From: Kineococcus rhizosphaerae
GTDB lineage: Bacteria > Actinomycetota > Actinomycetes > Actinomycetales > Kineococcaceae
Direction of reading: 5' to 3'
Assembly: GCF_003002055.1 (NCBI RefSeq)
Contig: NZ_PVZF01000008.1
Location: forward strand, 186,001 to 250,000
Length of the DNA stretch: 64,000 bases
The notes under the pieces were generated by a model that was not told the origin of the DNA, searched no databases, and worked only from the letters and a program-made list of their open reading frames with translations. The translations under genes were made by a program, and so were the position numbers. Below, in pieces: positions 39,178 to 54,051 of the stretch (position 1 is its first letter; each line of letters opens with the position of its first letter).

Positions 39178-39237
39178 GGGTCCACCCGACGGTCCCACCT
39201 CCCCGGGCGAAGGCCTGTCCTCCAAACCTGAGGCGTG

Positions 39238-39271
39238 TTAGCTTTTGAGGGCACTGGTCAACCGGTGCACC
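39238..39271 (+). promoter_or_regulatory. GntR operator 1 and -10, before the glycosidase gene
   Basis: GGTCAACC-GGTGCACC (39256-39271) matches the palindrome GGTCAACC-GGTTGACC at 14 of 16 positions. It sits just downstream of a TTAGCT -10 (39238-39243), where a bound repressor would block start or elongation. Confidence 0.6.
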
Positions 39272-39332
39272 TCTGCCTCCGCCGCAGAGGTCGTGTCAGC
39301 GACGACGCGCGTCCGCGCACCGGGAGAGATCC

Positions 39333-41093
39333 GTGCCCTACACCCGTGAGTCCAGCGTCGGCCACGTCCTGGACGACCCCGCCGCCCGCGCCGTCGTGCA
39401 GAAGTTCCTGCCCGGCGTCGCCAACTCCCCCATGGCCCTGCAGCTGCGCTCCGCCCCCCTCGGCGTCATCGTCGACCACGACCGGGTCCTCGCCGGCGAC
39501 CCCCAGCGGCTCCAGGACTTCTGGGACCGGATCTCCGAGATCGAGGTCGGTGAGGTCGCACCGCGTCCCGAGGCCCCGAGGATCGAGCCGGACCCCGGGT
39601 ACGAGACCCCCGACGTCCCGCGCGGCAGCGCCCGCGTCCACGTCCCCGCCCGCGGGACCCGCTACGGCGTGGTCGAGATCTCCTTCCACGGACCCGACCA
39701 CGGCAACCCCTTCGTCGACGTCGACCTCACCGCCGACGTCCACGGCCCGTCCGGCGACGTCCGCGTCGGCGGGTTCTACGACGGCGAGGGCCGCTACCTG
39801 CTGCGCTTCTGCCCGCAGGTCGAGGGCACGTGGACCTTCCGCACCCGCTCCACCGCGCGGTCCCTCGACGGCATCGAGGGGACCGTCGAGGTCGACCCCC
39901 CGGCCCCCGGCCAGCACGGCCCCGTGCGCGTGGCCGACACCTTCCACTTCGCCCACGCCGACGGGACCCGCTACACGCCCGTCGGCACCACGGCCTACGC
40001 CTGGATCCACCAGCCCGCGCACCTGCGCGAGCAGACGCTGGAGACGCTGGAGGCCTCGCCCTTCACGAAGATGCGCATGACGGTGTTCCCCAAGTCCTAC
40101 CTGTACAACTCCAACGAACCCGAGGTCTTCCCCTTCGTCCGCGGCGACGACGGCGAGTTCGACCACACCCGCTTCGACCCGGCGTTCTTCCACCTGCTCG
40201 AGGAGAGCGTCGCGGCGCTCGCCGAGCGGGGGATCGAGGCGGACCTCATCCTCTTCCACGCCTACGACCGCTGGGGTTTCTCCGACATGGGCGCGGCGGC
40301 CGACGACCGGTTCGTCCAGCACGTCGTCCGCCGGCTGGCGGCGTTCCCCACCGTCTGGTGGTCCATGGCCAACGAGTACGACCTGTTGTGGGCCAAGACC
40401 GTCGAGGACTGGGAGCGCATGGCGCAGGTCGTCGTCGCCGAGGACCACGTCGGGCACCTGAACTCGATCCACAACTGCTTCGGGTTCTACGACTACACCA
40501 GGCCCTGGATCACGCACTGCTCGACCCAGCGCATCGACGTCTACCGCACGGCGGAGAACACCACCGAGTGGCGGGAGCAGTGGGGCAAGCCGATCGTCGT
40601 CGACGAGTGCGCCTACGAGGGCGACATCGACCAGGGCTGGGGCAACATCACCGGCGAGGAGATGACGCGCCGCTGCTGGGAGGGGGCGGTGCGCGGCGGG
40701 TACGTCGCGCACGGGGAGACCTACTGGAACGAGCGGGAGGAGATCTGGTGGTCCAAGGGGGGTGAGCTCGTCGGCGACAGCCCGGCGCGCATGGGTTTCC
40801 TGGCCGACGTCATCGGGCAGGCCCCCGGTGGGGCGATCGAGCCGCTGGCCTCGGAGTGGGACGTGCGCTGGGGTGGCGTCGACGGGGAGTACCTGCTGGC
40901 CTACCTCGGTTTCGGCCGGCCCCGGTTCCGCGACGTCGTGGCGCCGCCGGGACGCTGGACCGTCGACGTCATCGACACGTGGAACATGACCGTGGACCGG
41001 CTCGAGGGTGAGTTCGAGGGCAGGTTCCGCGTGCAGCTGCCGGCCCGGCAGTGGATGGCGCTGCGCCTCGTCCGGGTGCGCGAGAGTTCCTGA
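39333..41093 (+). CDS. Intracellular DUF5060/DUF4038-type glycoside hydrolase (apiosidase-like)
   Basis: A 586-residue protein without a signal peptide. After a helical N-terminal segment of about 75 residues comes a beta-sandwich (about 95-195, DUF5060-like), then a TIM barrel (about 200-480) of the DUF4038 kind with motifs WWSMANEYDLLWAKT (acid/base Glu348) and VVDECAYEGDIDQGWGNIT (nucleophile Glu425), then a C-terminal DUF5605-like sandwich. DUF4038 proteins include the characterised apiosidases (GH140). The rest of the locus points to an apioside-like substrate cleaved after import. The exact glycoside is inference. Confidence 0.8.
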   Translation: MPYTRESSVGHVLDDPAARAVVQKFLPGVANSPMALQLRSAPLGVIVDHDRVLAGDPQRLQDFWDRISEIEVGEVAPRPEAPRIEPDPGYETPDVPRGSARVHVPARGTRYGVVEISFHGPDHGNPFVDVDLTADVHGPSGDVRVGGFYDGEGRYLLRFCPQVEGTWTFRTRSTARSLDGIEGTVEVDPPAPGQHGPVRVADTFHFAHADGTRYTPVGTTAYAWIHQPAHLREQTLETLEASPFTKMRMTVFPKSYLYNSNEPEVFPFVRGDDGEFDHTRFDPAFFHLLEESVAALAERGIEADLILFHAYDRWGFSDMGAAADDRFVQHVVRRLAAFPTVWWSMANEYDLLWAKTVEDWERMAQVVVAEDHVGHLNSIHNCFGFYDYTRPWITHCSTQRIDVYRTAENTTEWREQWGKPIVVDECAYEGDIDQGWGNITGEEMTRRCWEGAVRGGYVAHGETYWNEREEIWWSKGGELVGDSPARMGFLADVIGQAPGGAIEPLASEWDVRWGGVDGEYLLAYLGFGRPRFRDVVAPPGRWTVDVIDTWNMTVDRLEGEFEGRFRVQLPARQWMALRLVRVRESS

Positions 41094-41110
41094 GAGTTTC
41101 CACGAAATCC

Positions 41111-41149
41111 GGTCAACCGGTTGACGCGGAAACCTGACAGCGGCAGAAT
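41111..41149 (+). promoter_or_regulatory. GntR operator 2 overlapping the transporter promoter
   Basis: GGTCAACC-GGTTGACG (41111-41126) is symmetric in 7 of 8 base pairs. Its right end is the -35 TTGACG (41121-41126), exactly 17 bp before the -10 CAGAAT (41144-41149). A bound regulator would occlude the promoter of the binding-protein gene. Confidence 0.75.
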
Positions 41150-41282
41150 CACCGGTGGGACGTCGTCCCGCCCCCTCTGATCACCGCCGGACCGACACGG
41201 CAGTCGGTTCCGGCGCCCGTTCCACTCCCACCCCTCGGTGACCGGGCGCGGCCCGGCCAGAACTCGGCAACCAGGAGCAGAC

Positions 41283-42815
41283 ATGCAACGGCGCACCTTC
41301 CTCGCAGCCAGCGGCGGCTCGGCGGCTGTCCTCGGACTCAGCGCCTGCGGCGGTGGCGGCGACTCCGGCGGCGACGGCGGCAGCTCGACGACGCTGACGC
41401 TGGCGACCATCGCCGCCCCGCAGCCGTGGGACCTCAAGGACGCGGGTTTCGGCAACAACACCATCTACTACCAGCCCGTCTACGACTCCCTCCTGCTGGC
41501 CAGCGCCGAGGCCGAGCTCGAACCGAACCTGGCCACCGAGTGGAGCTGGGACGCGAGCCAGACCGTCCTGACGCTCAAGCTGCGCACCGACGTCAAGTTC
41601 ACCGACGGCACCGCGTTCGACGCCTCGGCGGTCAAGGCCAACCTGGAGAACACCAAGACCGGTTCGAACGAGGCCGCGACCCACCTCGCCGGGCTGAAGT
41701 CCGTCGACGTCGTCGACCCCTCGACGGTGACGGTGACCATCACCGCCCCCGATCCCTCGCTCCTGGCCAACCTCGCCAACGTCTCCGGGATGATGGCCAG
41801 CCCCAAGGCCATCGGCACACCCGGGCTGCAGACCCAGCCCGTGGGCTCGGGCCCCTACGTGCTGTCCGGCTCCGGCACGACGGCGGGTTCGCAGTACACG
41901 TTCACCCGCAACGCCGACTACTGGAACAAGGCCGCGTTCCCCTTCGACACGATCGTCTTCAAGTACCTGTCCGACGCCACCGCGCTGGTCAACGCGCTGC
42001 GGTCCGGTCAGATCGACGCCGGCCAGATCACCGACTACAAGCAGGCCGAACCGCTCAAGAGCGCCGGGCTCAACGTCGTCAAGTACTCCCCGGGGGACAT
42101 CACGGGCCTGTACATCTGGGACCGCGGCGGGAAGATCCTGCCCGCGCTGAAGGACGTGCGCGTCCGGCAGGCCCTCAACCACGCGATGGACCGCGAGGCC
42201 ATCGTCAAGGCCAACGGCGGGCTCGGGAAACCCACCGCCCAGGTCTTCAACCCGGACACCGGTGCCTACGACGAGACCCTGAACGACCTCTACCCCTACG
42301 ACGTCGCCAAGGCCAAGTCGCTGCTGGCCGAAGCGGGGTACCCGAACGGGTTCGAGGTCGCCATGCCGGACTTCTCGGCCATCTTCCCCAGCGCCCAGGC
42401 CTCCATCACCGAGGCGTTGCAGGCCATCGGGGTGACGCCGAAGTACGAGACGGTGCCCAGCGACCAGCTCATCACCCAGCTGCTCAGCGGCAAGTGGGCG
42501 ATGTGCTGGTTCATCCTGGCCTCGTTCCGCGCCTGGGACACCGTGAGCATCGAGATCGCCCCCGACTCCCTGTGGAACCTCACGAAGTACACCGACCCGC
42601 AGGCGCAGGCCCTCATCGACCAGGCGCAGCGGGCCACCGACGACACCACGCGCGACGGCATCCTGCGCCAGCTCAACGAGTACACCGTCCAGCAGGCCTG
42701 GAACGCGCCGTGGTCGACGTCCGAGGCCTACCACGCCTCCTCGAAGAAGGTCGCGGTCGTCCAGCGCAAGTTCGCCACGGCGCCCTGGATCTACGACTAC
42801 AAGCCCGCGAACTGA
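41283..42815 (+). CDS. ABC transporter substrate-binding lipoprotein (SBP_bac_5 family)
   Basis: A 510-residue exported lipoprotein. A Tat-type signal (RRTFLAASGG) leads to lipobox LSAC with lipidated Cys22. The rest is the cluster C (peptide/oligosaccharide) binding fold, e.g. LEPNLATEWSWDASQTVLTL, LRTDVKFTDGTAFDASAVKA and the VRQALNHAMDREAIV helix. Relatives bind peptides, nickel, opines or plant oligosaccharides; the adjacent glycosidase favours a glycoside. A GGAG lies before the ATG. Two permease modules and two ATPase modules follow, so the importer is complete. Confidence 0.9.
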   Translation: MQRRTFLAASGGSAAVLGLSACGGGGDSGGDGGSSTTLTLATIAAPQPWDLKDAGFGNNTIYYQPVYDSLLLASAEAELEPNLATEWSWDASQTVLTLKLRTDVKFTDGTAFDASAVKANLENTKTGSNEAATHLAGLKSVDVVDPSTVTVTITAPDPSLLANLANVSGMMASPKAIGTPGLQTQPVGSGPYVLSGSGTTAGSQYTFTRNADYWNKAAFPFDTIVFKYLSDATALVNALRSGQIDAGQITDYKQAEPLKSAGLNVVKYSPGDITGLYIWDRGGKILPALKDVRVRQALNHAMDREAIVKANGGLGKPTAQVFNPDTGAYDETLNDLYPYDVAKAKSLLAEAGYPNGFEVAMPDFSAIFPSAQASITEALQAIGVTPKYETVPSDQLITQLLSGKWAMCWFILASFRAWDTVSIEIAPDSLWNLTKYTDPQAQALIDQAQRATDDTTRDGILRQLNEYTVQQAWNAPWSTSEAYHASSKKVAVVQRKFATAPWIYDYKPAN

Positions 42816-42827
42816 CGGAGGGTCGTC

Positions 42828-43766
42828 GTGCTCGGATTCCTGGTGCGGCGCCTGGTCGCCGCCCTGGTCCTCGTGCTGGTGCTGGCCAGCGTGACGTTCG
42901 TCCTGCTGCAGTTCACCGGCACGAACCCGGCCCGCGCCATCGTGGGGCAGTCGGCGACGGCGGCGCAGGAAGCGCAGAAGGCCGCCGAGCTCGGGCTCGA
43001 CGAGCCCCTGCCCGTGCGGTACGCGAGCTTCCTCGGCCACCTCGTCCGCGGTGACCTCGGGACCTCGTGGTTCACGGGTCAGCCGGTCAGCTCCACCCTC
43101 GCCAACGCGCTGCCGGTGACCCTGTCGATCGTCGTCCTCGGCCTGGTGCTGTCCGCCGTGGTCTCCACCCTGATCGGGGTGGCGGCCGCGGTGCGCGGGG
43201 GCTGGCTGGACCGGGTCGTCCAGGTGCTGGCGGTCCTGGGCTTCGCGCTGCCGAGCTTCCTCGTCGCGCTGCTGCTGGCCCTGTTCGTCGCCGTGAAGTG
43301 GCACCTGCTGCCGGCGACGGGGTACGTGCGGTTCGCCGACGACCCGTCGGGGTGGTGGAAGTCCATCCTCCTGCCGGCGGTCTCCCTGGCCGTCGGCGCG
43401 ATCGCCGCCACGGCCCAGCAGGTCCGCGGCTCCATGGTCGACGTCCTGCGCCGCGACTACGTGCGGACCCTGCGGGCCCGGGGGATCAGCACCCGCAGCC
43501 TGCTCTTCCGGCACGCGCTGCGCAACGCGGCGCCCCCCGCGCTGACCGTCCTGGCCCTGCAGTTCATCGGCCTCATCGGCGGGGCCGTCGTGGTCGAGAA
43601 GGTGTTCGGCCTGTCGGGCATCGGGACGGCGGCGTTGTCGACGGCCTCGCAGGGCGACCAGCCCGTCGTCCTCGGGATCGTCGTCGTCACGGTCGTCCTC
43701 ATCGCCCTGGTGAACCTGCTGATGGACGTGGCGCACGGCTGGCTCAACCCGAAGGTGCGTGTCTGA
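42828..43766 (+). CDS. ABC importer permease (DppB type)
   Basis: A 312-residue inner-membrane protein with about six helices, the DppB N-terminus (LGFLVRRLVAALVLVLVLAS), a periplasmic loop containing DEPLPVRYASFLGHLVRGDL, and the coupling EAA-like loop DYVRTLRARGISTRSLLFRH. The GTG start has GGAGGG upstream. The stop overlaps the next start (TGATG). It pairs with the permease half of the following fused gene. Confidence 0.92.
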   Translation: MLGFLVRRLVAALVLVLVLASVTFVLLQFTGTNPARAIVGQSATAAQEAQKAAELGLDEPLPVRYASFLGHLVRGDLGTSWFTGQPVSSTLANALPVTLSIVVLGLVLSAVVSTLIGVAAAVRGGWLDRVVQVLAVLGFALPSFLVALLLALFVAVKWHLLPATGYVRFADDPSGWWKSILLPAVSLAVGAIAATAQQVRGSMVDVLRRDYVRTLRARGISTRSLLFRHALRNAAPPALTVLALQFIGLIGGAVVVEKVFGLSGIGTAALSTASQGDQPVVLGIVVVTVVLIALVNLLMDVAHGWLNPKVRV

Positions 43767-45535
43767 TGAGTTCCATCCCCACCCCCGCCGCGACCCCGGT
43801 CGTGGCCCCGGCCGCCCGGAAGGGACTGGCCCACCGCGTGGTCCGCAACCCGGTCGCGCTGGCCTGCCTCCTGGTCCTGGCCCTCATCGTCCTCGCCGCG
43901 GTGTTCGCCCCGCTGCTCACCTCCGCCGACCCGCGCAGGACGGCCGTCGCCGACGCCCTGGCCCCCGCGGGCGCCGGGCACCCCCTCGGGGCCGACGGCG
44001 TCGGCCGCGACGTGTGGGCCCGGTTGCTGTACGGGGCGCGCACGAGCCTGACGGGCACCCTCGTCGCGACCGGTGTGGCGTTGCTCATCGGGGTCCCCGC
44101 CGGTCTGGTCGCGGGCTACTTCCGCGGCTGGTTCGACGCCGTGACGTCGTGGCTGGCGAACCTGCTCATGGCGGTCCCCGCGATCATCCTGCTGCTCGTC
44201 GTGCTCTCGGTCGTCGGGCAGTCGACGTACCTCGCGATGGCCGTCTTCGGCGTCCTGCTCTCACCCGGGGTGTTCCGCCTGATCCGGGCCTCGGTGACCG
44301 CGGTGCGCGAGGAGCTCTACGTCGACGCCGCGCGGGTCTCGGGGTTGTCCGACGCGCGCATCGTCCGCCGGCACATCCTGCCCGTCGTCGCCGCGCCGTC
44401 GATCATCCAGGCCGCGCAGATGTTCGGCATCGGCGTCGTCATCCAGTCCGGCCTGGAGTTCCTCGGCCTCGGGTCGGCGGGCGACCCCAGCTGGGGTTCC
44501 ATGCTGTCCGACGCCTTCCAGAACATCTACCTCAAGCCCGTGCTGCTGCTGTGGCCCGGGCTGACCCTGGGCCTCATGGTCGTCGCGTGCGCCCTGCTGG
44601 GCAACAGCGTCCGCGACGCCCTGGAGGGTGGCGCCTCCAGGGCCCGGCGTCGCCGGGTCGCCGGGGGCACGGCCGTCGTGGAGGCCGCGGGCCGGCCCCG
44701 CGCGCCGCACGACGAGGACGCGCTGCTCGTCGTCGACGACCTGCGCGTCTCCTACCCCCGGCCCGACGGTTCACTCAGCACCGTCGTCGACGGCGTCTCG
44801 CTGACGGTCCGCCGCGGTGAGGTCCTCGGGCTGGTGGGGGAGTCCGGGTCGGGCAAGTCGCAGACGGCGTTCTCGGTGCTCGGGCTGCTGCCGCCGGAGG
44901 CGGTGATCTCCGCCGGCTCCCTCACCTTCGCCGGCGAGGACCTGACCGGTCTGTCGGGCAAGACCCTCAACGACCTGCGCGGCGCGAAGATCGGCTACAT
45001 CCCGCAGGAGCCCATGAGCAACCTCGACCCGTCGTTCACCATCGGGTGGCAGCTGGTGGAACCCCTGCGCCGGCACCTGGGGCTGTCCAGGGCCGCGGCG
45101 AAGGAGAAGGCCCTCGGGCTGCTGGCCCGCGTCGGCATCGCCGACCCCGCCCGCGTCTTCGCCTCCTACCCGCACGAGGTCTCCGGGGGGATGGCCCAGC
45201 GCGTCCTCATCGCCGGGGCGGTCTCCTGCGAACCGGACCTGCTCATCGCCGACGAACCCACCACCGCCCTGGACGTCACCGTCCAGGCCGAGGTCCTCGA
45301 CCTCATCCGGTCGTTGCAGGCCGAGCGGAACATGGGGGTCCTGCTCGTCACCCACAACTTCGGGGTCGTGGCCGACCTGTGCGACAGCGTGGTCGTCATG
45401 CAGACGGGCAGGATCGTCGAGCACGCGTCGGCCGTCGCGGTGTTCGCGGACCCGCAGCACGAGTACACCCGGATGCTGCTGGACTCCACCCTGGAGGACA
45501 CCGCCCCCCGTCCCGAGCTGAAGGTGATCTCGTGA
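43766..45535 (+). CDS. Fused ABC permease-ATPase (DppC-DppD)
   Basis: A 589-residue fusion. Residues 1-290 are a DppC-type permease (LGADGVGRDVWARLLYGART, AARVSGLSDARIVRRHILPV). A charged linker of about 30 residues follows. The C-terminal half is a DppD-type ATPase with Walker A GESGSGKS, Q-loop YIPQEPMSNLDP, signature VSGGMAQR, Walker B LLIADEPTTALD and the H-loop THN. Fusing membrane and nucleotide-binding parts fixes their stoichiometry; similar fusions occur in some actinobacterial peptide-type importers. The ATG overlaps the DppB stop. Confidence 0.92.
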   Translation: MSSIPTPAATPVVAPAARKGLAHRVVRNPVALACLLVLALIVLAAVFAPLLTSADPRRTAVADALAPAGAGHPLGADGVGRDVWARLLYGARTSLTGTLVATGVALLIGVPAGLVAGYFRGWFDAVTSWLANLLMAVPAIILLLVVLSVVGQSTYLAMAVFGVLLSPGVFRLIRASVTAVREELYVDAARVSGLSDARIVRRHILPVVAAPSIIQAAQMFGIGVVIQSGLEFLGLGSAGDPSWGSMLSDAFQNIYLKPVLLLWPGLTLGLMVVACALLGNSVRDALEGGASRARRRRVAGGTAVVEAAGRPRAPHDEDALLVVDDLRVSYPRPDGSLSTVVDGVSLTVRRGEVLGLVGESGSGKSQTAFSVLGLLPPEAVISAGSLTFAGEDLTGLSGKTLNDLRGAKIGYIPQEPMSNLDPSFTIGWQLVEPLRRHLGLSRAAAKEKALGLLARVGIADPARVFASYPHEVSGGMAQRVLIAGAVSCEPDLLIADEPTTALDVTVQAEVLDLIRSLQAERNMGVLLVTHNFGVVADLCDSVVVMQTGRIVEHASAVAVFADPQHEYTRMLLDSTLEDTAPRPELKVIS

Positions 45536-45654
45536 GCGACGAGCGGCGCGACGGCGCCTGGACCGAGGCGGCACGCCGACGCAGTCGCTGCGTGGTGGCG
45601 GGGGAGGGCGGCGTCACGAGCGCCGCGACGGAGCGAACCGAGGTGGCAGCGTGA
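45532..45654 (+). CDS. Possible 40-residue ORF between the two ATPase genes
   Basis: The GTG overlaps the stop of the fused ATPase gene (GTGA), and its own TGA overlaps the start of the next ATPase gene (GTGA). The predicted peptide (SDERRDGAWTEAARRRSRCV onward) is arginine-rich and resembles nothing I know. The DNA consists largely of two diverged copies of a 35-37 bp repeat, so this may be an inserted repeat that happens to stay open and keeps the flanking genes coupled. Confidence 0.25.
   Translation: MSDERRDGAWTEAARRRSRCVVAGEGGVTSAATERTEVAA
45540..45651. repeat. Two diverged direct copies of a 35-37 bp repeat
   Basis: Copy A (45540-45576) and copy B (45617-45651) share CGAGCG-C-GCGACGG, then ACCGAGG-GGCA in the same order. 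They resemble short dispersed GC-rich repeats of actinobacterial genomes. They fill the only gap in an otherwise tightly packed operon. Confidence 0.55.
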
Positions 45655-46529
45655 GCCTGCTGGAGATCGAGGACGTCATCGTCGAGTACCCCGCGAAGGG
45701 GTTCGGCAAGAAGCCGTTCCGGGCCCTGCACGGGGTCTCCCTGGACATCGCCGCCGGCGAGACCGTCGGGCTGGTGGGGGAGTCCGGCTCGGGCAAGACC
45801 ACCCTCGGACGCGCCGTCCTGGGGCTGGCCCCCGTGACGGCTGGGGTGGTCCGGTTCGACGGCCGGGTGATCTCGAACATCGGCAAGGCCGAGCGGCGCA
45901 AGCTGTCCGACGACGTCCAGGTCGTGTTCCAGGACCCGTACACGTCGCTGAACCCGGCGCTGACCGTGGAGGACATCCTCACCGAGCCGCTGCTGGTGGC
46001 CGGGGTGTCCCGGGCGGCGGCGAGCAAGCGGGTGCGGGACCTGCTGGACGAGGTGCGGTTGCCCGCGGACGCGGGGGGCCGGTTGCCGCGGGAGTTCTCC
46101 GGCGGGCAGCGCCAGCGGGTGGCGATCGCGCGGGCGCTGTCGCGCGACCCGCGGTTGATCGTGTGCGACGAGCCGGTCAGCGCGCTGGACCTGTCGAACC
46201 AGGCGCGGGTGCTGGACCTGTTCATCGAGATCCAGGAGCGGACGGGGGTGGCGTACCTGTTCGTGACGCACGACCTGTCGGTGGTGCGGCACATCTCGCA
46301 CCGGGTGGCGGTGATGACGTCGGGGCGGATCGTGGAGACCGGTCCCGCGGGGTTCGTCACGTCCACCCCCGAGCACCCGTACACCCAGCGGCTGCTGCTG
46401 GCGGCGCCGGTGCCCGACCCGGCGCGGCAGGCCCAGCGCCGCGCCGACCGGCACCGGCTGCTCGCCGCCCAGGCCGAGCAGGACGAACAGGGCGGCGGCA
46501 GCTTCGCCGCCTCGAGCGCGCAGGGCTGA
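45651..46529 (+). CDS. ABC importer ATPase (DppF type)
   Basis: A 292-residue ATPase with Walker A GESGSGKTTLG, Q-loop VVFQDPYTSLNP, signature FSGGQRQRVAIA, Walker B RLIVCDEPVSALD and H-loop THDLSVVRH, plus a C-terminal oligopeptide-type extension (STPEHPYTQRLLLAAPVPDP). It is the second nucleotide-binding subunit of the importer and would heterodimerise with the ATPase half of the fused protein. Confidence 0.92.
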   Translation: MSLLEIEDVIVEYPAKGFGKKPFRALHGVSLDIAAGETVGLVGESGSGKTTLGRAVLGLAPVTAGVVRFDGRVISNIGKAERRKLSDDVQVVFQDPYTSLNPALTVEDILTEPLLVAGVSRAAASKRVRDLLDEVRLPADAGGRLPREFSGGQRQRVAIARALSRDPRLIVCDEPVSALDLSNQARVLDLFIEIQERTGVAYLFVTHDLSVVRHISHRVAVMTSGRIVETGPAGFVTSTPEHPYTQRLLLAAPVPDPARQAQRRADRHRLLAAQAEQDEQGGGSFAASSAQG

Positions 46530-46604
46530 CGCGACGCGACCGTGGTCGTCAGCGGTCCGCGCACCGACCGAGCGGAACCACCGGTTCCGGGAAACGAGTG
46601 AGAC

Positions 46605-48197
46605 GTGTTCGACGAGAGCCTGGCCCGCACCGTGCACGGTCCCGTCCGCGGACGGGTCCGCGAGGACGGCGTCCACGTGTTCAAGGGGATCCGCTACGGC
46701 GCGGACACCCGTGGGCACCGGTTCGAGCCGCCCCGTCCGCCCGCCGGCTGGACGGACGTGGCGAACGCCTGGGAGTTCGGCCCCACCTGCCCGCAGGACG
46801 ATCCCGACGTCCGGTTCGACCGCGCGCAGTTCCCGTTCCTGCAGATGATCGGGCTCACGGACAACCTGCCCGAGAGCGAGGACTGCCTGTTCCTCAACGT
46901 CTGGACGCCCGCGACGCGCGACGGCGGCCAGCGCCCCGTGATGGTGTGGGTGCACAGCGGCGGGTACGCGACCAACTCCGGGTCGTCGCCGTCCATCGAC
47001 GGGGCGAAGCTCGCGGCCGAGGGCGACGTCGTCGTCGTGACCTTCAACCACCGGCTCAACGTCTTCGGGTACCTGCACCTCGGCGACCACCTGGGTGACG
47101 ACCCGGACCACCCGTGCGCCAGGTCGGGGAACGCCGGGATGCTCGACGTCGTCCAGGTGCTGCAGTGGGTGCGGGACAACGCCGCCGAGTTCGGCGGGGA
47201 CCCGGGGAACGTCACGGTGTTCGGTCAGTCCGGCGGGGCGATGAAGATCTCGACGCTGCTGGGGATGCCGGCCGCCCGGGGGTTGTTCCACCGGGCGATC
47301 CTGTCCAGCGGGGCCACCCCGCGGGTGCAGACGACGGCCCAGGCCGCCGTCGCCGCGAAGGAGCTGTTCGCCGCGGCCGGGACCTCCGACGTCGAGGGGC
47401 TGCGGGAACTGTCGACGCAGGACCTGCTGCGGGCCGGCCGGTCCGTCAGCGCCCGCCGGGGCCTGACGGCGTTCGGGGCGGTCGCCGACGGCGTCGTGGT
47501 GCCCGACGACCCGTTCGAACCCCGGCCCAGCGCCGTGAGCTTCGACGTCCCCGTCCTGGTCGGTGACCTCGACACCGAGGTCGCGCTGTTCACGAGCGTC
47601 GGCTCCCCGGACCTGCCGTCCCTGACCGAGCAGGGCCTGGCGCAGCGGTTGGCCCCGCTGGGGGAGGCCGCGGCGGGGGTCGTCGACGCCGTGCGCGTCT
47701 CGCACCCGGGCGCCTCGCCGTACGAGGTGTTCCTGCGCATCGCCTCGGGACTGGTCTTCACCGCGAACGCCGAACGGCTCGCCGACCGGGCGGCCTCGCG
47801 CGCCGCCGACGGTGGGGCACCGGCCTGGCGGTACCGGATCACGTGGCGGACACCGGTGGGCGACTTCCTGTCGCCGCACGAGGTGGACGTCGCGCTGGTC
47901 TTCGGCAACGTCGACGCCGCCGCGGGGCTGAACGGCGGGGGAGCGGACGCCCACCGGCTCTCGGAACTGCTGCGTGCGACCTGGGTCGCGTTCGCGCGCA
48001 CCGGGTCCCCGCAGAACCCGCTGCTGCCCGAGTGGCCGGCGTACGCGTCGGCGGAGCGCCCCGTGCTGGCGTTCGGCCCGGAACCGCGCGTCGTCCCCGA
48101 CCTCGACGGCCCCGAGCTGCGAGCCTTGCGGCCGCTGGTCGACCACCCGCCGGTCGACTCCGACTGGCTCAACGTCCTGCTGTTCTCGAACCGCTGA
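46605..48197 (+). CDS. Type-B carboxylesterase
   Basis: A 530-residue cytoplasmic esterase. The triad is Ser209 (GQSGGA), Glu325 (DTEVALF) and His425 (SPHEVDVALVFGN); the oxyanion loop reads HSGGY where HGGG is usual. The SEDCLFLNVW block is typical. In this locus it could remove acyl groups (acetyl, malonyl or phenolic) from the imported glycoside. The 75-bp upstream gap holds the dyad CGGAACC-ACC-GGTTCCG (46573-46589), whose half-sites differ from those of the GntR sites. Confidence 0.9.
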   Translation: MFDESLARTVHGPVRGRVREDGVHVFKGIRYGADTRGHRFEPPRPPAGWTDVANAWEFGPTCPQDDPDVRFDRAQFPFLQMIGLTDNLPESEDCLFLNVWTPATRDGGQRPVMVWVHSGGYATNSGSSPSIDGAKLAAEGDVVVVTFNHRLNVFGYLHLGDHLGDDPDHPCARSGNAGMLDVVQVLQWVRDNAAEFGGDPGNVTVFGQSGGAMKISTLLGMPAARGLFHRAILSSGATPRVQTTAQAAVAAKELFAAAGTSDVEGLRELSTQDLLRAGRSVSARRGLTAFGAVADGVVVPDDPFEPRPSAVSFDVPVLVGDLDTEVALFTSVGSPDLPSLTEQGLAQRLAPLGEAAAGVVDAVRVSHPGASPYEVFLRIASGLVFTANAERLADRAASRAADGGAPAWRYRITWRTPVGDFLSPHEVDVALVFGNVDAAAGLNGGGADAHRLSELLRATWVAFARTGSPQNPLLPEWPAYASAERPVLAFGPEPRVVPDLDGPELRALRPLVDHPPVDSDWLNVLLFSNR

Positions 48198-48211
48198 AGG
48201 GAAACCGGATC

Positions 48212-49102
48212 GTGACCACCACCGAAGACCCCACCGAGACCCCCACCGAGACCCCGTCCGTCGTCGTCGCCGTCGTCGGGGCCGGCGGCAAGATGGGCAT
48301 GCGCGTCTCGCGCAACCTGCAGAAGTCCGCCCACACCGTCCGCTACGCCGAGACCTCCCCCGCCGGCACCGAACGCATGGCCGCCGAGGGCCGCACCGCG
48401 GTGTCCACCGCCGAAGCCGTCGACGGCGCCGACGTCGTCGTCCTCGCCGTGCCCGACACCGTCCTGGGCGTCGTCTCGCAGTCCGTCGTACCGGCCATGA
48501 AACCCGGCTCGATCCTGCTCACCCTCGACCCCGCCGCCGCCTACGCCGGCCTGCTCGCCCAGCGCGCCGACGTCGCCCAGGCCGTCGCCCACCCCTGCCA
48601 CCCCTCGGTGTTCCTCGAACGCACCCGCCCGGAGGAGTACGCCGACAACTTCGGCGGCGAGGCGGCCCGGCAGAACGTCGTCGCGGCGTTCGAGCACGAC
48701 GACCAGCAGAAGCGGGCCGTGGCCGAGGACGTCATCCGGACCATGTACGGGCCCGTCGACACCGTCCACTGGGTCAGCGTCAAGCAGCTCGCCGTCCTCG
48801 AACCCACCCTGGTCGAGACCGTGGCCTGCATGATCGGCCAGCTCCTGAAGGACGCGCTGCACGAGACCGTCCACACCGTGGGGGTGCCGGAGGAGGCCGC
48901 GAAGGCGATGCTGTTCGGGCACGTGCAGATCGCGTTGACGAACACGCTGCGCGGGTCGAACCCGTTCTCCGAGGCGTGCCTGATCGCGATGGACTACGGC
49001 CGTGAGTCCATCGTCAAGGACGACTGGAAGAAGATCTTCCGCGACGACGAACTCGACTCCGTCATCACCAGGATGCTCAAGCTGGAGAAGATCGAACGAT
49101 GA
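48212..49102 (+). CDS. D-apionate oxidoisomerase (ApnO)-like dehydrogenase
   Basis: A 296-residue protein. The N-terminal Rossmann fold (VVGAGGKMGM, residues 21-30; VVVLAVPDTVLG; LLTLDPAAAYAG) is joined to a helical phosphogluconate-dehydrogenase-C-like domain with the conserved AHPCHPSVF and QLAVLEPTLVETV. This is the architecture I associate with ApnO, which oxidises D-apionate while migrating its hydroxymethyl group to give 3-oxo-isoapionate. The assignment rests on remembered family resemblance and on the lactonase- and decarboxylase-like neighbours. The stop overlaps the SDR start (ATGA). Confidence 0.7.
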   Translation: MTTTEDPTETPTETPSVVVAVVGAGGKMGMRVSRNLQKSAHTVRYAETSPAGTERMAAEGRTAVSTAEAVDGADVVVLAVPDTVLGVVSQSVVPAMKPGSILLTLDPAAAYAGLLAQRADVAQAVAHPCHPSVFLERTRPEEYADNFGGEAARQNVVAAFEHDDQQKRAVAEDVIRTMYGPVDTVHWVSVKQLAVLEPTLVETVACMIGQLLKDALHETVHTVGVPEEAAKAMLFGHVQIALTNTLRGSNPFSEACLIAMDYGRESIVKDDWKKIFRDDELDSVITRMLKLEKIER

Positions 49103-49908
49103 GCAGCGCCACCACGGACGGCACGACCACCGGACGCCTGCGGGGCAAGCACGCCCTGGTGACCGGAGCCGCCTCCGGCATCGGCCGCGCGGTGGCGACC
49201 CGCTTCGCCGCCGAGGGCGCGCACGTCGTCTTCGCCGACCGCGACCTGCCGGGCGCCGACCGCGCGGTCGCCGAACTCCCCGCGGGGCTCGCCGGTACCG
49301 CGACCGCGGTGCAGGTGGACGTCACCGACGAGGACAGCGTCGCCGCCGCGTACGCCCGGGTCCTCGCCGGGACCGGACCGCTGGACGTGGTGGTGGCCAA
49401 CGCCGGGGTGCAGCTGTTCGGGCACGACGCGCCGGTCGCCGACCTGGACCTGGACGTGTGGCGGCGCACGATCGACGTGAACCTGACCGGCACGTTCCTG
49501 ACCGTCAAGCACGCCGTGCGGGCGATGCGCGGACGCACCGACGGACGGCGCGGCGGGTCGATCATCTGCACCGGCAGCCCCACGGGCCTGAACGGCGAGG
49601 GACGCGACTTCACCGCCTACTCCTCCTCCAAGGCCGGCGTCCACGGCCTGGTGCGCACGGTCGCCGCCGCCTACGCCGCCGACGGCGTCCGGGTCAACAC
49701 CGTCGTGCCCGGCTACACCGAGACCCCGCTGGTCACCGCCATCTCCGGCGACGCCGCCTCCCGGGCCGCCATCGTGAGCCGCACGCCCCTGGGCCGGGCG
49801 GGGACCCCGGCCGACGTGGAGGGGATCATGGTCTACCTGGGCGGCGACGAGGCCACCTTCGCCACCGGCGCGATCTTCCGCGTCGACGGGGGGATGACCT
49901 CCCTGTGA
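49099..49908 (+). CDS. SDR-family dehydrogenase in the glycoside locus
   Basis: A 269-residue classical short-chain dehydrogenase with cofactor motif TGAASGIG (22-29), NAG at 101-103, catalytic Ser160, Tyr174 and Lys178, and the C-terminal FRVDGGMTSL. The acidic FADRD after the second strand suggests NAD+. SDRs of this kind oxidise sugars to lactones; placed between an oxidoisomerase-like and a lactonase-like gene, it is the best candidate for oxidising the released sugar (apiose to apionolactone). Both ends overlap neighbours by 4 bases. Confidence 0.85.
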   Translation: MSSATTDGTTTGRLRGKHALVTGAASGIGRAVATRFAAEGAHVVFADRDLPGADRAVAELPAGLAGTATAVQVDVTDEDSVAAAYARVLAGTGPLDVVVANAGVQLFGHDAPVADLDLDVWRRTIDVNLTGTFLTVKHAVRAMRGRTDGRRGGSIICTGSPTGLNGEGRDFTAYSSSKAGVHGLVRTVAAAYAADGVRVNTVVPGYTETPLVTAISGDAASRAAIVSRTPLGRAGTPADVEGIMVYLGGDEATFATGAIFRVDGGMTSL

Positions 49909-51794
49909 GCGTGTCGTCGCCCCAGCCCACCGGCGGCACGGACAGCACCGAGGACCTGGACGCGTGGCGGGACGACGAGCCGGCTCCGCAGCACCTCTCC
50001 ACCGGTCCGTGGACGATGACGGTGCGGGGGGTTTCGGTCGACGACATCGGCTACGGCGGGGTGCCGGTCCTCAGCGCCCTGCGCGTCGTCGTGCGCGACC
50101 ACGACTGGCGCACCGTGCCCGTCACCTCCTGCTCGGTGGACGTGCGGGAAGCCGGTGATCAGCGTCTGCACGTGGTGCTCAGCGCCACCCACGACGACCT
50201 GGGCGCCGGCGTGCAGTGGCGCTCCGAACTCACCGCCGAGGGCAACCGCCTACGCCTGGCCGTGGCCGGGGAGGTGACCCGCCCGTTCCGGCGCAACCGG
50301 ATGGGGCTGGTGGTGCTGCACCCGGTCGACGTCGCCGGAACCGTTCTGCGGGTGCGCCACCCGGACGGTTCGGCCACCACCACGGCGTTCCCCCGCGACA
50401 TCGCCCCCCACCAGCCGGCCGAGGACGTGGCCGGGCTCGACTGGACGTCGGAGACCACGGACGGCGTTCTCGACGTGTCGCTGGACCTGCACGGGGAGGT
50501 GTTCGAGATGGAGGACCAGCGCAACTGGACCGACGCCTCCTTCAAGACCTACAGCACCCCTCTGACCGAACCCTTCCCCGTCCCGGTCGTCGCCGGTGAC
50601 GGTTTCGAGCACGTCGCCGAGGTCGTCGTCGCACCGGCCGGTCCGCCGCCGGCCGCCGCCGGTGAAACCACCGCGGGGGAGCCCCTCGCCGTCCTCCTCG
50701 ACCCGCTGTCGACCGGCGCGCACCCCGCGCCGCGGCTGCAGCTGCAGGCGTCGACCGCGCCCGGAGGGGTTCCCCGGCTCGAGGCGCTGGAGTGGCGCGG
50801 GCCGCTGCTCGTGGAGCTCGACGCCACCGGCCGGGCCTGGCCGGGTGTGCTCGCGCGGGCGGGGCGGGAGGCCGACCTGCTGGGCGGGGCCGGTCTCGAC
50901 GTGCGGATCACCGCACGCGACGGCGCCGACCTGGACCCGGTGCTGGTGGCCCTGCGGCGGTACCGGGTGGAGCGGGTGGCCGCCTACGACGGCGTCGGGC
51001 ACGTCACCACCCCCGCGCTGTGGCGCCACCTGCGCGAGCGGGCCGTAGAGCTGTCGGTGGACCTGCCGCTGGCCGGGGGGACCCGGGCGCACTTCACCGA
51101 GCTGAACCGCCGCCGCCAGGACCTGCCCGCCGACCTGCCCGCGTGGACGTTCTCCAGCACCCCGCAGATGCACGACACGGGCCGGCGCCAGCTGCTGCAG
51201 GCCGTCGCCGTGCAGCGGCAGACCGCCGAGCAGGCCGTCCGCCTCGCCGGTGCCCGCCCGGTGCACGTCGGGCCGGTGACCCTGCGCGCCCGCTTCAACG
51301 CCGTCGCGACGTCCGGGCGCCACGACGAGGACGCCGACGTCGTGGCGGCCGGCACCGGCCCGCAGCACGTGTGGGCGGCCGACGACCCGCGCCAGGCCGG
51401 CCACGGGTTCGCGGCCTGGCTGATCGCCTCCTACCAGGCCTTCGCCGTCCCCGGCGTGGCCTCGGTGACCTTCGCCGAGACGTGGGGGCCCCGGGGCGTG
51501 GTCTCCGTCGCGGGGGAGCCCTTCCCCGCCGCGCAGTCGGTGGGCTGGCTGGCCGCGCTCGACGGCTGGGACCTGTTGCCCTGCCCCCTCGTCCCCGGGC
51601 TGGGCCTGGTCGCGGCCCGCCGCGCCGGCCGGCTCGTCGTGCTCGCCGCCGACCTGACGGGGCGGGGCCGGCGGGTCCGGGCCGGTGGTCTGGACCTGGT
51701 GGTCGGGCCGTGGGGCACCGCCCGCGGCGAGGGCAGCGCCTCGGGCGGTGCCCCCGTGGACCAGCCGGCGTCGACCCCGAGCGTGAGAGGCTGA
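49905..51794 (+). CDS. D-apionate lactonase (ApnL)-like large protein
   Basis: A 629-residue cytoplasmic protein. The N-terminal 245 residues form a beta-sandwich-like region with NRMGLVVLHP, HPDGSATTTAFPRDIAPHQP and the striking block EMEDQRNWTDASFKTY (201-216). A TIM-barrel-like middle (VELSVDLPLAGGTRAHFTEL, FSSTPQMHDTG, FNAVATSG) and a C-terminal sandwich follow. I recall the MEDQRNWTDASFKTY block from the apionolactone-hydrolase (ApnL) family, so I infer ring opening of an aldonolactone. The GTG start overlaps the SDR stop (GTGA). Confidence 0.65.
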   Translation: MSVSSPQPTGGTDSTEDLDAWRDDEPAPQHLSTGPWTMTVRGVSVDDIGYGGVPVLSALRVVVRDHDWRTVPVTSCSVDVREAGDQRLHVVLSATHDDLGAGVQWRSELTAEGNRLRLAVAGEVTRPFRRNRMGLVVLHPVDVAGTVLRVRHPDGSATTTAFPRDIAPHQPAEDVAGLDWTSETTDGVLDVSLDLHGEVFEMEDQRNWTDASFKTYSTPLTEPFPVPVVAGDGFEHVAEVVVAPAGPPPAAAGETTAGEPLAVLLDPLSTGAHPAPRLQLQASTAPGGVPRLEALEWRGPLLVELDATGRAWPGVLARAGREADLLGGAGLDVRITARDGADLDPVLVALRRYRVERVAAYDGVGHVTTPALWRHLRERAVELSVDLPLAGGTRAHFTELNRRRQDLPADLPAWTFSSTPQMHDTGRRQLLQAVAVQRQTAEQAVRLAGARPVHVGPVTLRARFNAVATSGRHDEDADVVAAGTGPQHVWAADDPRQAGHGFAAWLIASYQAFAVPGVASVTFAETWGPRGVVSVAGEPFPAAQSVGWLAALDGWDLLPCPLVPGLGLVAARRAGRLVVLAADLTGRGRRVRAGGLDLVVGPWGTARGEGSASGGAPVDQPASTPSVRG

Positions 51795-51798
51795 GACC

Positions 51799-52626
51799 GT
51801 GCCCGCCTTCCGAGACGACGACCCCATCCGGGTGGAGCTGGAGCTCAAGGCGCTCCCGCGCGGGTCGGCCGTCGCCGACGTGGCCCGGCAGATGACCTCA
51901 CTGATCGCTCAGGGCACCTTCCCCGCCGGTTCCCGGCTGCCTCCCGAGCGCCAGCTGGCCGAGTCCCTGGGCGTGGGGCGCTCGGCGGTGCGCGAAGCGC
52001 TGGCGGCGCTGGAGATCCTCGGGCTGGTCACCGTGCGCCCCGGTTCGGGGACCTACATCCGCGACAGCACCTCCGAGTTGCTGCCCACCACTCTCAGCTG
52101 GGGGCTGATGCTGTCGGGCGAGCACACCGCCCAGCTGTCGGAGGTCCGCAGCGCCCTGGAGGTGGGGTCGGCGGTCCTGGCCGCCCAGCGCATCGACGCC
52201 GACGGTGTGCAGGAGCTGCGCGCCCACCTGGAGGCCATGGAGTCGCACACCGGCGACCTGGGCGCCTTCATCGAGGCCGACGCGGCGTTCCACCTGCAGG
52301 TGGCTCGCGCCGCCGGCAACGGGGTGATGGGCGACCTGCTGCAGACGGTCCGCTCGCTGCTGCGGGTCTGGGTCGAGCGCGGCCTGCGCAGCCAGGACCA
52401 GGCCCTGACCGCCTGCCGGGAGCACCGGGCCGTCTACGAGGCCATCGCCGCCGGGGACGCCGCGGCGGCCGGGGCGGCGATGGACGCGCACATGCGCACC
52501 GCGGGCGACCGGGTCGAGCACGCCGAGACCCCGGCCGGAGCCGCCGTCGAGGCGGTCGCGGCCCCGGCGGCGCGGACCGTCTCGGCCCCGCGCAAGGGTG
52601 GGCGGGCGGCCAAGCTCGCGCGCTGA
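51799..52626 (+). CDS. GntR/FadR-family regulator of the glycoside locus
   Basis: A 275-residue regulator. The N-terminal GntR winged helix (FPAGSRLPPERQLAESLGVG, RSAVREALAALEILGLVTVR) and the FCD effector domain (LSEVRSALEVGSAVLAAQRI, ADAAFHLQVARAAGNGVM, CREHRAVYEAIAAGD) are complete, with a C-terminal low-complexity alanine-rich tail. It lies inside the locus, between the lactonase-like and TIM-barrel genes. Three copies of a 16-bp dyad in the locus are its likely targets; relief by a pathway acid or lactone is typical of FCD regulators. Confidence 0.9.
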   Translation: MPAFRDDDPIRVELELKALPRGSAVADVARQMTSLIAQGTFPAGSRLPPERQLAESLGVGRSAVREALAALEILGLVTVRPGSGTYIRDSTSELLPTTLSWGLMLSGEHTAQLSEVRSALEVGSAVLAAQRIDADGVQELRAHLEAMESHTGDLGAFIEADAAFHLQVARAAGNGVMGDLLQTVRSLLRVWVERGLRSQDQALTACREHRAVYEAIAAGDAAAAGAAMDAHMRTAGDRVEHAETPAGAAVEAVAAPAARTVSAPRKGGRAAKLAR

Positions 52627-52663
52627 CGCACCGGCGCGGGGAAGGTGACCGGCACCAGGTACC

Positions 52664-52679
52664 CTTGAACCGGTTGACC
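52664..52679 (+). promoter_or_regulatory. GntR operator 3, before the TIM-barrel gene
   Basis: CTTGAACC-GGTTGACC shares its right half with the ideal palindrome GGTCAACC-GGTTGACC and is weaker on the left (5 of 8). It covers a -35-like TTGACC (52674-52679). No good -10 follows at the normal distance. Confidence 0.5.
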
Positions 52680-52717
52680 AGTGCGAGGCTCCGGGTCGTG
52701 GAGCCGGAGGAGGCGTC

Positions 52718-53518
52718 GTGGCCGTCGGAGTGTCCACCTACGCGTACCAGCACCGCTCGGCGGCGCAGGCGGTCCCGTTGCCGGGGATGCTGCACGAGAT
52801 CGCCGACCTCGGCGGGCAGGTCTTCCAGATCTGCGACCACCCCGACCTGGAGACCCTCACCCCCCCGGGAGCGCAGGAGCTGCGGGCGGCCGCCGACGAC
52901 CGCGGCCTGGTCCTGGAGACCGGCACCCGCGGCACCCGCCCGGACCACCTGCGCAAGCACCTGGCCCTGGCCCGGTCCCTGGGGGCGCGGACCGTGCGCT
53001 CCATGGCGTACGCGGTCGTCGACGGGGTCGACGACCGCCCCTCGCACGCCGAGATCGTCGAGCGCCTGCGCCTGGTGGTCCCCGAGTACGCCGCCGCGGG
53101 GGTGACGCTGGGCCTGGAGACGTACGAGCAGCTGACGACGACCGACCTGCTGGCGATCGTCGAGGCGGTGGACTCCCCGCACCTGGGGATCGTGCTGGAC
53201 CCGGCCAACTGCGTGGCCAACCTCGAGCACCCGCGCGACGTCGTGCGCCGCCTGGCGCACCGCGTGGTCAACGTCCACGTCAAGGACTTCGTCTTCACTC
53301 GGCGCGAGGGCTGGGCCGGTTTCACCCTGGCGTCCTGCCCGCTGGGGGAGGGGCAGCTGGACTACCGCGACCTGCTGGCCGTCGTGCAGCCCGACCCCGA
53401 GCGCGTCCACCAGGTGCTCGAGCACTGGCTGGTGCCCCAGGAGGACCCGGCCTCCACCTGCGCCACCGAGGCCGACTGGACCGAGCGGTCGCTGCGCACC
53501 CTGATCGGCTACCAGTGA
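52718..53518 (+). CDS. Xylose-isomerase-like TIM-barrel protein (3-oxo-isoapionate decarboxylase candidate)
   Basis: A 266-residue AP-endonuclease-2/xylose-isomerase-like TIM barrel. Metal ligands are Glu134 (LGLETYEQ), Asp161 (VLDPANCV), His187 (VNVHVKDF) and Glu235 (VLEHWL). The start VGVSTYAY and the segment LETGTRGTRPDHLRKHLALA recall the group that includes OiaC, which decarboxylates 3-oxo-isoapionate to L-erythrulose. An isomerase or epimerase role is the alternative. A ribosome-binding site GGAGGAGG precedes the GTG. Long hairpins follow the stop. Confidence 0.75.
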   Translation: MAVGVSTYAYQHRSAAQAVPLPGMLHEIADLGGQVFQICDHPDLETLTPPGAQELRAAADDRGLVLETGTRGTRPDHLRKHLALARSLGARTVRSMAYAVVDGVDDRPSHAEIVERLRLVVPEYAAAGVTLGLETYEQLTTTDLLAIVEAVDSPHLGIVLDPANCVANLEHPRDVVRRLAHRVVNVHVKDFVFTRREGWAGFTLASCPLGEGQLDYRDLLAVVQPDPERVHQVLEHWLVPQEDPASTCATEADWTERSLRTLIGYQ

Positions 53519-53549
53519 CCCTCCGGTGAGCGCGGCGCCCGTCCGCCGG

Positions 53550-53602
53550 AGTGGTGCGTTCCGACCCGCTCGCGAGTCGCGGACGGGTCGGGACGCACCA
53601 CT
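53550..53602. terminator. Long hairpin at the end of the glycoside operon
   Basis: Arms 53550-53568 and 53584-53602 pair at 18 of 19 positions (the exception would be a G-U pair in RNA) around a 15-nt loop. It lies 31 bp after the TIM-barrel stop. Confidence 0.75.
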
Positions 53603-53608
53603 TCCGCG

Positions 53609-53664
53609 GTGCGGCACGTCACGGGCCGCGAGTCGACGACCTCGCGGACGACGTGGTGCCGCAC
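53609..53664. repeat. Second inverted repeat following the operon
   Basis: GTGCGGCAC (53609) pairs with GTGCCGCAC (53656-53664), with further partly complementary sequence inside (GTC/GAC and CGCGAG/CTCGCG). It ends 9 bp before the stop of the convergent hypothetical gene. Confidence 0.5.
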
Positions 53665-53673
53665 CCGGTGCGC

Positions 53674-54051
53674 TCACCCGTCCAGGCCCCAGCCGACCGG
53701 GTCGGCCGTCCACGCCTCCAGGTCGGCCGCCGTGCGGAAGTGCCACCGCACCCAGCGCGCCTCCTCGTGAGCCCGCACCAGGACGTCGCCCGGCCGGAGC
53801 GCGGGCAGCGACTCCAGCGAGTCGTCGACCTCGAGCAGGTGCCCGAAGTGGCACACCAGCACGTCCTCCTCGCCTTCGTCGGTGCGGGGGTGGGCGAACA
53901 GGACCCCGTGGTCGTCGGACGGATCCGCCGGGTCCAGCGGGAACCGCCCGAGCACCGTGACGGGCTCGCCGGCGGCGGCCAGCGCGGTGGTCGTCACGGG
54001 TTCTGCCGGGTCGGGGACGAGACCCGGCTGTCGCTTCCACGGCCACTCCAC
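53674..54051 (-). CDS. Hypothetical protein
   Basis: A 125-residue acidic soluble protein (VEWPWKRQPGLVPDPAEPVT at the start, ARWVRWHFRTAADLEAWTAD near the end). No family is recognised. The start is a GTG without a clear ribosome-binding site; the open frame upstream is arginine-rich and not protein-like. It is divergent from the LexA-box gene across 186 bp. Confidence 0.55.
   Translation of the reverse strand: MEWPWKRQPGLVPDPAEPVTTTALAAAGEPVTVLGRFPLDPADPSDDHGVLFAHPRTDEGEEDVLVCHFGHLLEVDDSLESLPALRPGDVLVRAHEEARWVRWHFRTAADLEAWTADPVGWGLDG

Follow-up and report, generated by a model that had tools for sequence, protein, structure and literature searches.

The eleven genes considered here lie in the genome of Kineococcus rhizosphaerae, within a stretch of 64,000 nucleotides (assembly GCF_003002055.1, contig NZ_PVZF01000008.1, positions 186,001 to 250,000) that is referred to below as the window and to which all positions apply. 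An earlier note had interpreted them as a self-contained locus for the uptake and breakdown of an acylated, apioside-like glycoside. The layout that it described, namely eleven co-oriented genes with overlaps, was borne out by the list of open reading frames, by a codon-usage gene caller and by the Pfam and NCBIfam profile searches with which the domains of the eleven proteins were assigned. All eleven genes are located on the plus strand and span positions 39333-53518 according to both the open reading frame list and the gene caller, the latter having been trained on the window's own genes and overlooking some genes. The two differ in that the caller places the start of the lipoprotein gene later and that of the fused permease gene one codon later. 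The claimed protein families were likewise found in the profile searches, i.e. a DUF5060/PF13204/DUF5605 glycosidase, a peptide-type ATP-binding cassette (ABC) importer, a COesterase, a short-chain dehydrogenase/reductase (SDR), a GntR-FCD regulator and a triose-phosphate isomerase-type (TIM) barrel protein.

The first gene (39333-41093) encodes a glycoside hydrolase, a predicted apiosidase that consists of a helical N-terminal region followed by DUF5060, PF13204 and DUF5605 domains. It is followed by the importer genes, which are assigned by their Pfam and NCBIfam domains and encode a solute-binding lipoprotein of the SBP_bac_5 family (41283-42815), a permease of the OppB/DppB type (42828-43766), an OppC-type permease fused to an OppD-type ATPase (43763-45535) and an OppF-type ATPase (45651-46529). 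The reading frame of the lipoprotein opens at 41238; a start at 41283 is more likely, as judged by eye from the lipobox (MQRRTFL...LSAC). The next gene specifies a carboxylesterase (46605-48197; PF00135, 300.1 bits) with GQSGG at residue 207 and, by eye, no signal peptide. Downstream of it are the genes for an ApnO-like protein, a predicted D-apionate oxidoisomerase (48212-49102), for the SDR, a predicted D-apiose 1-dehydrogenase (49099-49908), and for an ApnL-like protein, a predicted lactonase (49905-51794), with overlaps of four nucleotides at both junctions. The last two genes encode the GntR-FCD protein, predicted to repress three promoters (51799-52626), and an OiaC-like TIM barrel protein, a predicted decarboxylase (52718-53518).

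The oxidative pathway for D-apiose reportedly described by Carter et al. 2018, a study cited in PMC6302742, proceeds through ApsD, ApnL and ApnO, and then through OiaC or OiaK/OiaX; the names and steps of ApnO, OiaC, LerK and LerI are those reportedly given there. The ApnO-like protein of the window is a PGDH_C family protein (PF16896, 194.6 bits) linked to ApnL-like and OiaC-like genes. Its identity with an Erwinia sp. E602 protein is 62.6% and with ApnO of Shinella 40.8%, and none of the three proteins matched an NCBIfam model at E≤1e-20. The TIM barrel protein is of the xylose-isomerase-like type (PF01261, AP_endonuc_2) and shares 44% full-length identity with the product of the gene adjoining the ApnO relative in Erwinia sp. 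E602; there was no OiaC model among its profile matches, and its decarboxylase activity is a prediction. The Erwinia locus also carries dihydroxyacetone-kinase-type, triose-phosphate-isomerase-type and major facilitator superfamily (MFS) genes, with RpiB on the opposite strand, and a Pantoea locus resembles it in combining ApnO and OiaC relatives with a kinase and an isomerase of the same types and RpiB. This gene set is presumably that for the conversion of D-apionate via L-erythrulose to D-erythrose 4-phosphate. Plasmids of Shinella and Microvirga carry ApnO, a ribose-type ABC importer, a Gfo/Idh enzyme, ApnL and an OiaX-type gene (named OiaX in the Shinella record), and two Sinorhizobium plasmids carry the ribose-type importer, Gfo/Idh and ApnL. 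D-apionolactonase, D-apiose dehydrogenase and D-apionate oxidoisomerase appear in the EC list given for a strain that grows on D-apiose (PMC11747546).

To place the window among its relatives, its ApnL-like protein served as query in a scan that yielded 80 named loci, the best 80 of at least 553 confirmed matches. These belong mostly to Microbacteriaceae and other actinobacteria, and the frequencies lean to close relatives. Counts were made with tblastn at thresholds fixed in the script, the gene caller having labelled no ApnL gene in 13 of the 80 loci. Relatives of the SDR (55 loci), ApnO (51), OiaC (50), GntR (43), LerI (42), RpiB (41), LerK (41) and MFS (26) genes recur, and the complete set of GntR, LerK, RpiB, LerI, OiaC, ApnO, SDR and ApnL, MFS being excluded, was present in 29 of the 80. 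In addition, 297 genomes of the same order as the window were searched for relatives of the window proteins; eight candidates per genome were scored for ApnO and the SDR and four for ApnL, the glycosidase and the importer, so that absences are soft. A strong ApnO match (more than 350 bits) was found in 33 of these genomes. Unrelated enzymes were not the best matches of both the ApnO-like and the ApnL-like protein, and relatives of ApnO, OiaC and ApnL occur with recurring neighbours. As far as sequence comparison goes, the interpretation as an apiose pathway is upheld for the catabolic core. The description of the locus as self-contained had to be given up: LerK-, RpiB- and LerI-like genes are located at G000:C1 of the window's genome and a further LerK-RpiB pair on C38, so that the predicted L-erythrulose kinase and isomerases are encoded on other contigs.

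The SDR is assigned by its domain match and by its recurrence beside ApnL. Close relatives (E≤1e-75) were found in 21 of the 297 genomes, and each of these 21 also contains an ApnL-like gene. ApnL-like matches occur in 26 genomes, 25 of them above 100 bits, and all SDR genomes are among these 25; ApnL without a close SDR was observed in G105, G119, G199, G182 and, with an ApnL match of 45 bits, G205. Of the 80 named loci, 54 have an SDR relative of at least 55% identity no more than 1 kb from ApnL by tblastn, and 47 have the SDR within 500 bases by gene calls. A full-length ApsD relative was found in two named loci (L106 and L117) and an ApsD fragment in one (L116). Some loci, such as L057, L074, L085 and L100, have neither SDR nor ApsD near ApnL. 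No Gfo/Idh/MocA protein was detected among the eleven window proteins by Pfam or NCBIfam, and the SDR stands in its place. The co-occurrence of SDR and ApnL supports the SDR as the sugar-oxidising step, and it is therefore likely a D-apiose dehydrogenase that probably replaces the Gfo/Idh dehydrogenase ApsD.

The proposal of an ApnL-like lactonase fared less evenly. The ApnL model NF049900 was the sole NCBIfam match of the window protein and a block of the family is conserved, but the score of 175.4 bits is far under the curated cut-off of 750, and the predicted structure resembles glycosidases. We therefore rejected the protein as an equivalog of curated ApnL; as a positive control, ApnL of Shinella scores 813.5 bits. 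Pfam returned no match for the window protein, and no protein of known structure was related to it in sequence. In the EMEDQRNWTD block, eight positions were counted, and each of them is invariant across the 85 rows of an alignment comprising 10 rhizobial-type, 16 other and 58 actinobacterial sequences and the window protein. Separately, a gene for a protein of 421 amino acids (MGH1/trehalase-like in L085) lies directly 3' of ApnL in L085 (11743-13008) and L098 (11737-13002), with relatives in L080 and L084.

The GntR protein of the window and the NanR-type regulator of the Shinella locus share 33% identity across 179 residues. Inverted repeats were searched for de novo around the starts of locus genes in all loci, the window included, and GTCAACCGGTTGAC emerged. 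From this, an operator matrix was built with 38 sites (30 distinct) of named loci L038-L103; the window was left out, and an exact ten-base core was required, hence the core is fixed by selection. The consensus of the matrix is the palindrome ATTGGTCAACCGGTTGACCAAT. Its three best sites in the window, all given on the plus strand, precede the importer (41108-41129, score 19.6, with an exact 14-base core), the OiaC-like gene (52661-52682, 19.1) and the glycosidase gene (39253-39274, 17.2, with a core at 39257-39270 that has two mismatches to GTCAACCGGTTGAC). The fourth-ranked site scores 4.6 and is coding. In 50 mononucleotide shuffles the mean maximum was 6.3 and the highest 17.8, which is above the third window site. 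Core matches with at most two mismatches number three in the window against 0.29 expected, a count that none of 100 dinucleotide shuffles reached; at three mismatches there are eight places against 3.1 expected, and two of 100 shuffles reached eight. Genome-wide, the core occurs with at most two mismatches at 24 places, three of them at this locus, versus eight for a reversed-pattern control. Four of the other places were inspected: three lie in coding genes (including C10:148261, with one mismatch) and the fourth is flanked by the ends of two genes, one of them on the minus strand and ending about 55 bases before it. The sole promoter-like site found in 39100-53800 is at 41121-41149, and its -35 box overlaps the exact operator. 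A second palindrome from the de novo scan, GAAGATCTTC, was dropped, as it sits at 49030 inside the ApnO gene. A protein with GntR and FCD domains thus coincides with a shared palindrome before its predicted target genes, to which binding is predicted, and the operator sites before the glycosidase, importer and OiaC genes speak for a single regulon in the window's genome. The predicted sites in the window, and the operon structure in L079, suggest that glycosidase, importer and core are controlled together; this does not extend to all relatives.

The earlier note had proposed an intracellular DUF5060/DUF4038/DUF5605 apiosidase. The domains, the absence of a signal peptide (by eye) and a candidate catalytic pair agree with this, but the protein differs from GH140 in this pair and in its flanking domains. 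The PF13204 domain, also present in GH140, covers residues 205-466 (41.1 bits, cut-off 26.5). Glu425 (DECAYEG) is invariant in a 15-row alignment and Glu348 (NEYD) nearly so, one row ending before Glu348. The GH140 β-apiosidase BT_1012 has the catalytic pair Asp187/Glu284; glutamate occupies the first position in 17.3% of PF13204 members, and PF12904 is present in about 60% (PMC4032388). With Glu348/Glu425 instead of an Asp/Glu pair, and with DUF5060 and DUF5605 instead of a C-terminal PF12904, an assignment to GH140 was rejected. The model of the glycosidase is of moderate quality (predicted local distance difference test, pLDDT, 72.0), and Foldseek ranked BVU_0362 (PDB 4n0r, 36% identity) first, followed by a GH5 mannanase and BT_1012 (14% identity); 4n0r was also the top phmmer match.

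Seventeen of the 297 genomes contain a glycosidase relative with at least 100 bits, and a strong ApnO is present in 13 of these (odds ratio 42; one-sided Fisher test, 6e-11 by genome; 7 of 9 and 1e-7 at the genus level, relatedness beyond the genus not being corrected). The glycosidase was absent from all 10 other sampled genomes of the window's genus, a soft absence. Within flanks of up to 10 kb, 16 of the 80 named loci, which were chosen by ApnL alone, contain a relative, and these form one close group (about 56-66% identity) and a second at about 40%. Counted by likeness to single representatives, other families among the 80 loci are GH78 (14), GH42 (10), GH3 (8) and nucleoside-hydrolase-like proteins (7). 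The glycosidase gene follows ApnL after 41 bases at the operon end in Humibacter albus (L079), is present in two copies upstream of ApnL in G085, and adjoins the SDR gene far from ApnL in G031.

Two further observations concern glycosidases elsewhere. The window's genome encodes two more PF13204 proteins that outscore the one discussed here, with 231 bits (L162, G000:C4:343960-344919) and 186 bits (L163, G000:C2:578047-579018); a different palindrome (core GGACAAACGTTTG) occurs three times near the latter, together with a Gfo/Idh-like gene and apparent genes of an ABC importer. Nucleoside-hydrolase-like PF01156 genes are found at the apiose loci L064 (11983-12945), L078, L081, L083, L086 (13090-14016), L091 and L092, and adjoin importer relatives in L189, L190 and L195. 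In L086, an exact operator core lies 158 bases upstream of this gene, and a 'nucleoside hydrolase' is likewise annotated in the Microvirga locus L007. It is possible that the PF01156 proteins are furanosidases of apiosides.

The peptide-type importer proposed in the earlier note was confirmed as such, with an SBP_bac_5 protein, a pair of permeases of which the second carries a fused ATPase, and a further ATPase. Importer relatives in other genera are located near the glycosidase (G279, G187 and G269) or near ApnL (L038 and L064). Apiose cores of the same genus have other importers beside OiaC, namely a ribose-type ABC importer in G148 and an MFS protein in G092, and the window's genome contains no close relative of the MFS protein or the ribose-type binding protein of related loci (best identities 38% and 34%). 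On this basis, the importer type looks exchangeable.

Altogether, we consider it fairly probable that the locus is a GntR-controlled regulon for the use of an apiose-containing plant glycoside. The lipoprotein and the peptide-type ABC importer would take up the intact glycoside, from which the cytoplasmic DUF5060/PF13204/DUF5605 glycosidase would free D-apiose. The SDR would oxidise apiose to apionolactone, the ApnL-like protein would open the lactone, and 3-oxo-isoapionate would be formed from apionate by the ApnO-like protein and decarboxylated by the OiaC-like TIM barrel protein, yielding L-erythrulose. The LerK-, RpiB- and LerI-like proteins, whose genes are located elsewhere, may then lead from L-erythrulose to D-erythrose 4-phosphate, and the GntR protein would repress the three promoters via ATTGGTCAACCGGTTGACCAAT. 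The enzyme activities, the transported compound and the direction of regulation, i.e. repression, are what we infer from the comparisons above. More tentatively, and at a lower level of confidence, the locus may represent an actinobacterial apioside regulon with an intracellular Glu/Glu apiosidase family outside GH140, an SDR non-homologous to ApsD, and an ApnL on a glycoside-hydrolase-like scaffold that keeps a glutamate pair at strands 4 and 7.

Several observations weigh against an apioside regulon, in addition to the low NF049900 score. Relatives of the fused permease-ATPase with 76% identity in two genomes of the same genus lie beside GH43, GH42 or GH2-type and nucleoside-hydrolase-like genes, which makes the importer look like one for plant glycosides in general and not apiose-specific by descent, and no good operator was found before these closest importer relatives (L189 and L190). 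Likewise, the glycosidase-importer cassettes L172-L174 (G279, G187 and G269) lack a good operator, the best site scoring 10.3 and being coding, and none was found at the LerK clusters of the window's genome (L170 and L171). The esterase has a single relative, of 30% identity, in the 80 named loci (L094), and the suggestion that the substrate is acylated could not be maintained. Finally, four of the 17 genomes with the glycosidase have no strong ApnO (G068, G214, G244 and G294, one of them, G294, with a match of 141 bits only), and the glycosidase may therefore cut other glycosides.

Some of these observations fit an alternative in which the core is for apiose but the substrates of the glycosidase and importer are different plant glycosides, such as arabinoside, galactoside or xyloside conjugates, apiose entering as a minor or later product. 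Importer relatives adjoin GH43, GH42, GH3 and GH2-type genes; the operator-free cassettes and the glycosidase genomes without strong ApnO point the same way, as does G214 (L180; another family), in which the glycosidase adjoins a GH3 gene near a GH31 gene. However, in the window the glycosidase and importer share their operator with the apiose core, and the glycosidase gene directly follows ApnL in L079 and adjoins the SDR gene of G031. We regard this alternative as unlikely.

Less probable still is that in actinobacteria the ApnL-like protein acts as a glycosidase, the lactone opening spontaneously or through another enzyme. The model of the window protein (pLDDT 86.6) comprises a β-sandwich, a TIM barrel and a small β-domain, and Foldseek returned GH36 and GH97 first and GH30 lower, with low TM-scores. 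When strands are numbered along the DSSP line, Glu399 comes after barrel strand 4, and strand 7 terminates in Glu525. Of the 58 actinobacterial ApnL rows, 57 have Glu525, as do 14 of the 16 other rows, but it occurs in none of the 10 rhizobial-type rows. A gene of the SMP-30/gluconolactonase type, a candidate lactonase, directly adjoins ApnL in L041 (8861-9772) and L101 (9063-9953), both without a close SDR. On the other hand, the EMEDQRNWTD positions are invariant throughout the family, and no second lactonase family was detected among the eleven window proteins by Pfam or NCBIfam. Moreover, Glu525 alone is no marker of another function because glutamate is also present in L117, with its full-length ApsD relative, and in L116, with OiaX and an ApsD fragment, although L106, with ApsD and ApnO, has glutamine. 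A pathway for a different branched or unbranched aldose, the aldonate of which would be the ApnO substrate, is comparably improbable: pieces of ApnL and ApnO share no more than 30-41% identity with the Shinella proteins and no actinobacterial member with a tested substrate turned up in the literature search, but OiaC, LerK, LerI and RpiB fit the route from D-apionate to D-erythrose 4-phosphate, and ApnO and ApnL relatives occur with ApsD-type and OiaX/OiaK-type genes.

An apioside regulon would share with the oxidative D-apiose pathway the ApnO- and ApnL-family proteins, the OiaC-like TIM barrel protein, the NanR-like GntR regulator and, by prediction, L-erythrulose as endpoint. It would differ in the SDR instead of the Gfo/Idh enzyme ApsD, the distant ApnL, the added glycosidase, the peptide-type importer in place of a ribose-type ABC or MFS transporter, and the unlinked kinase and isomerases. 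The glycosidase resembles BT_1012 (PF13204 and PF12904) in its PF13204 barrel (Foldseek E 1.3e-12), unlike which it has a Glu/Glu pair, DUF5060 and DUF5605 flanks and no signal peptide. The 36% identity to BVU_0362, a putative glycoside hydrolase to which the depositors assign no function, extends over 514 alignment columns, gaps included. The importer belongs to the same families as other peptide-type (SBP_bac_5) ABC importers but is preceded by the apiose-locus operator. A D-apiose cluster of Escherichia coli with two putative oxidoreductases instead of an isomerase is described for another, transketolase-type route (PMC13001218). In open-access literature, seen mostly as titles and abstract openings, we found no description of this kind of locus and no paper on an intracellular bacterial apiosidase.

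Apiose is found in rhamnogalacturonan-II pectin, in cell walls of aquatic plants and in flavonoid glycosides (PMC11747546). The locus seems to represent a known type of apiose regulon that is here extended to a glycoside, several protein types differing from those of the known pathway. It offers candidates for an apiosidase family, for an SDR apiose dehydrogenase and for a regulator together with the operator, and relatives exist in many actinobacterial genera. Judged by its model, the ApnL-like protein would be a lactonase of glycosidase-like fold.

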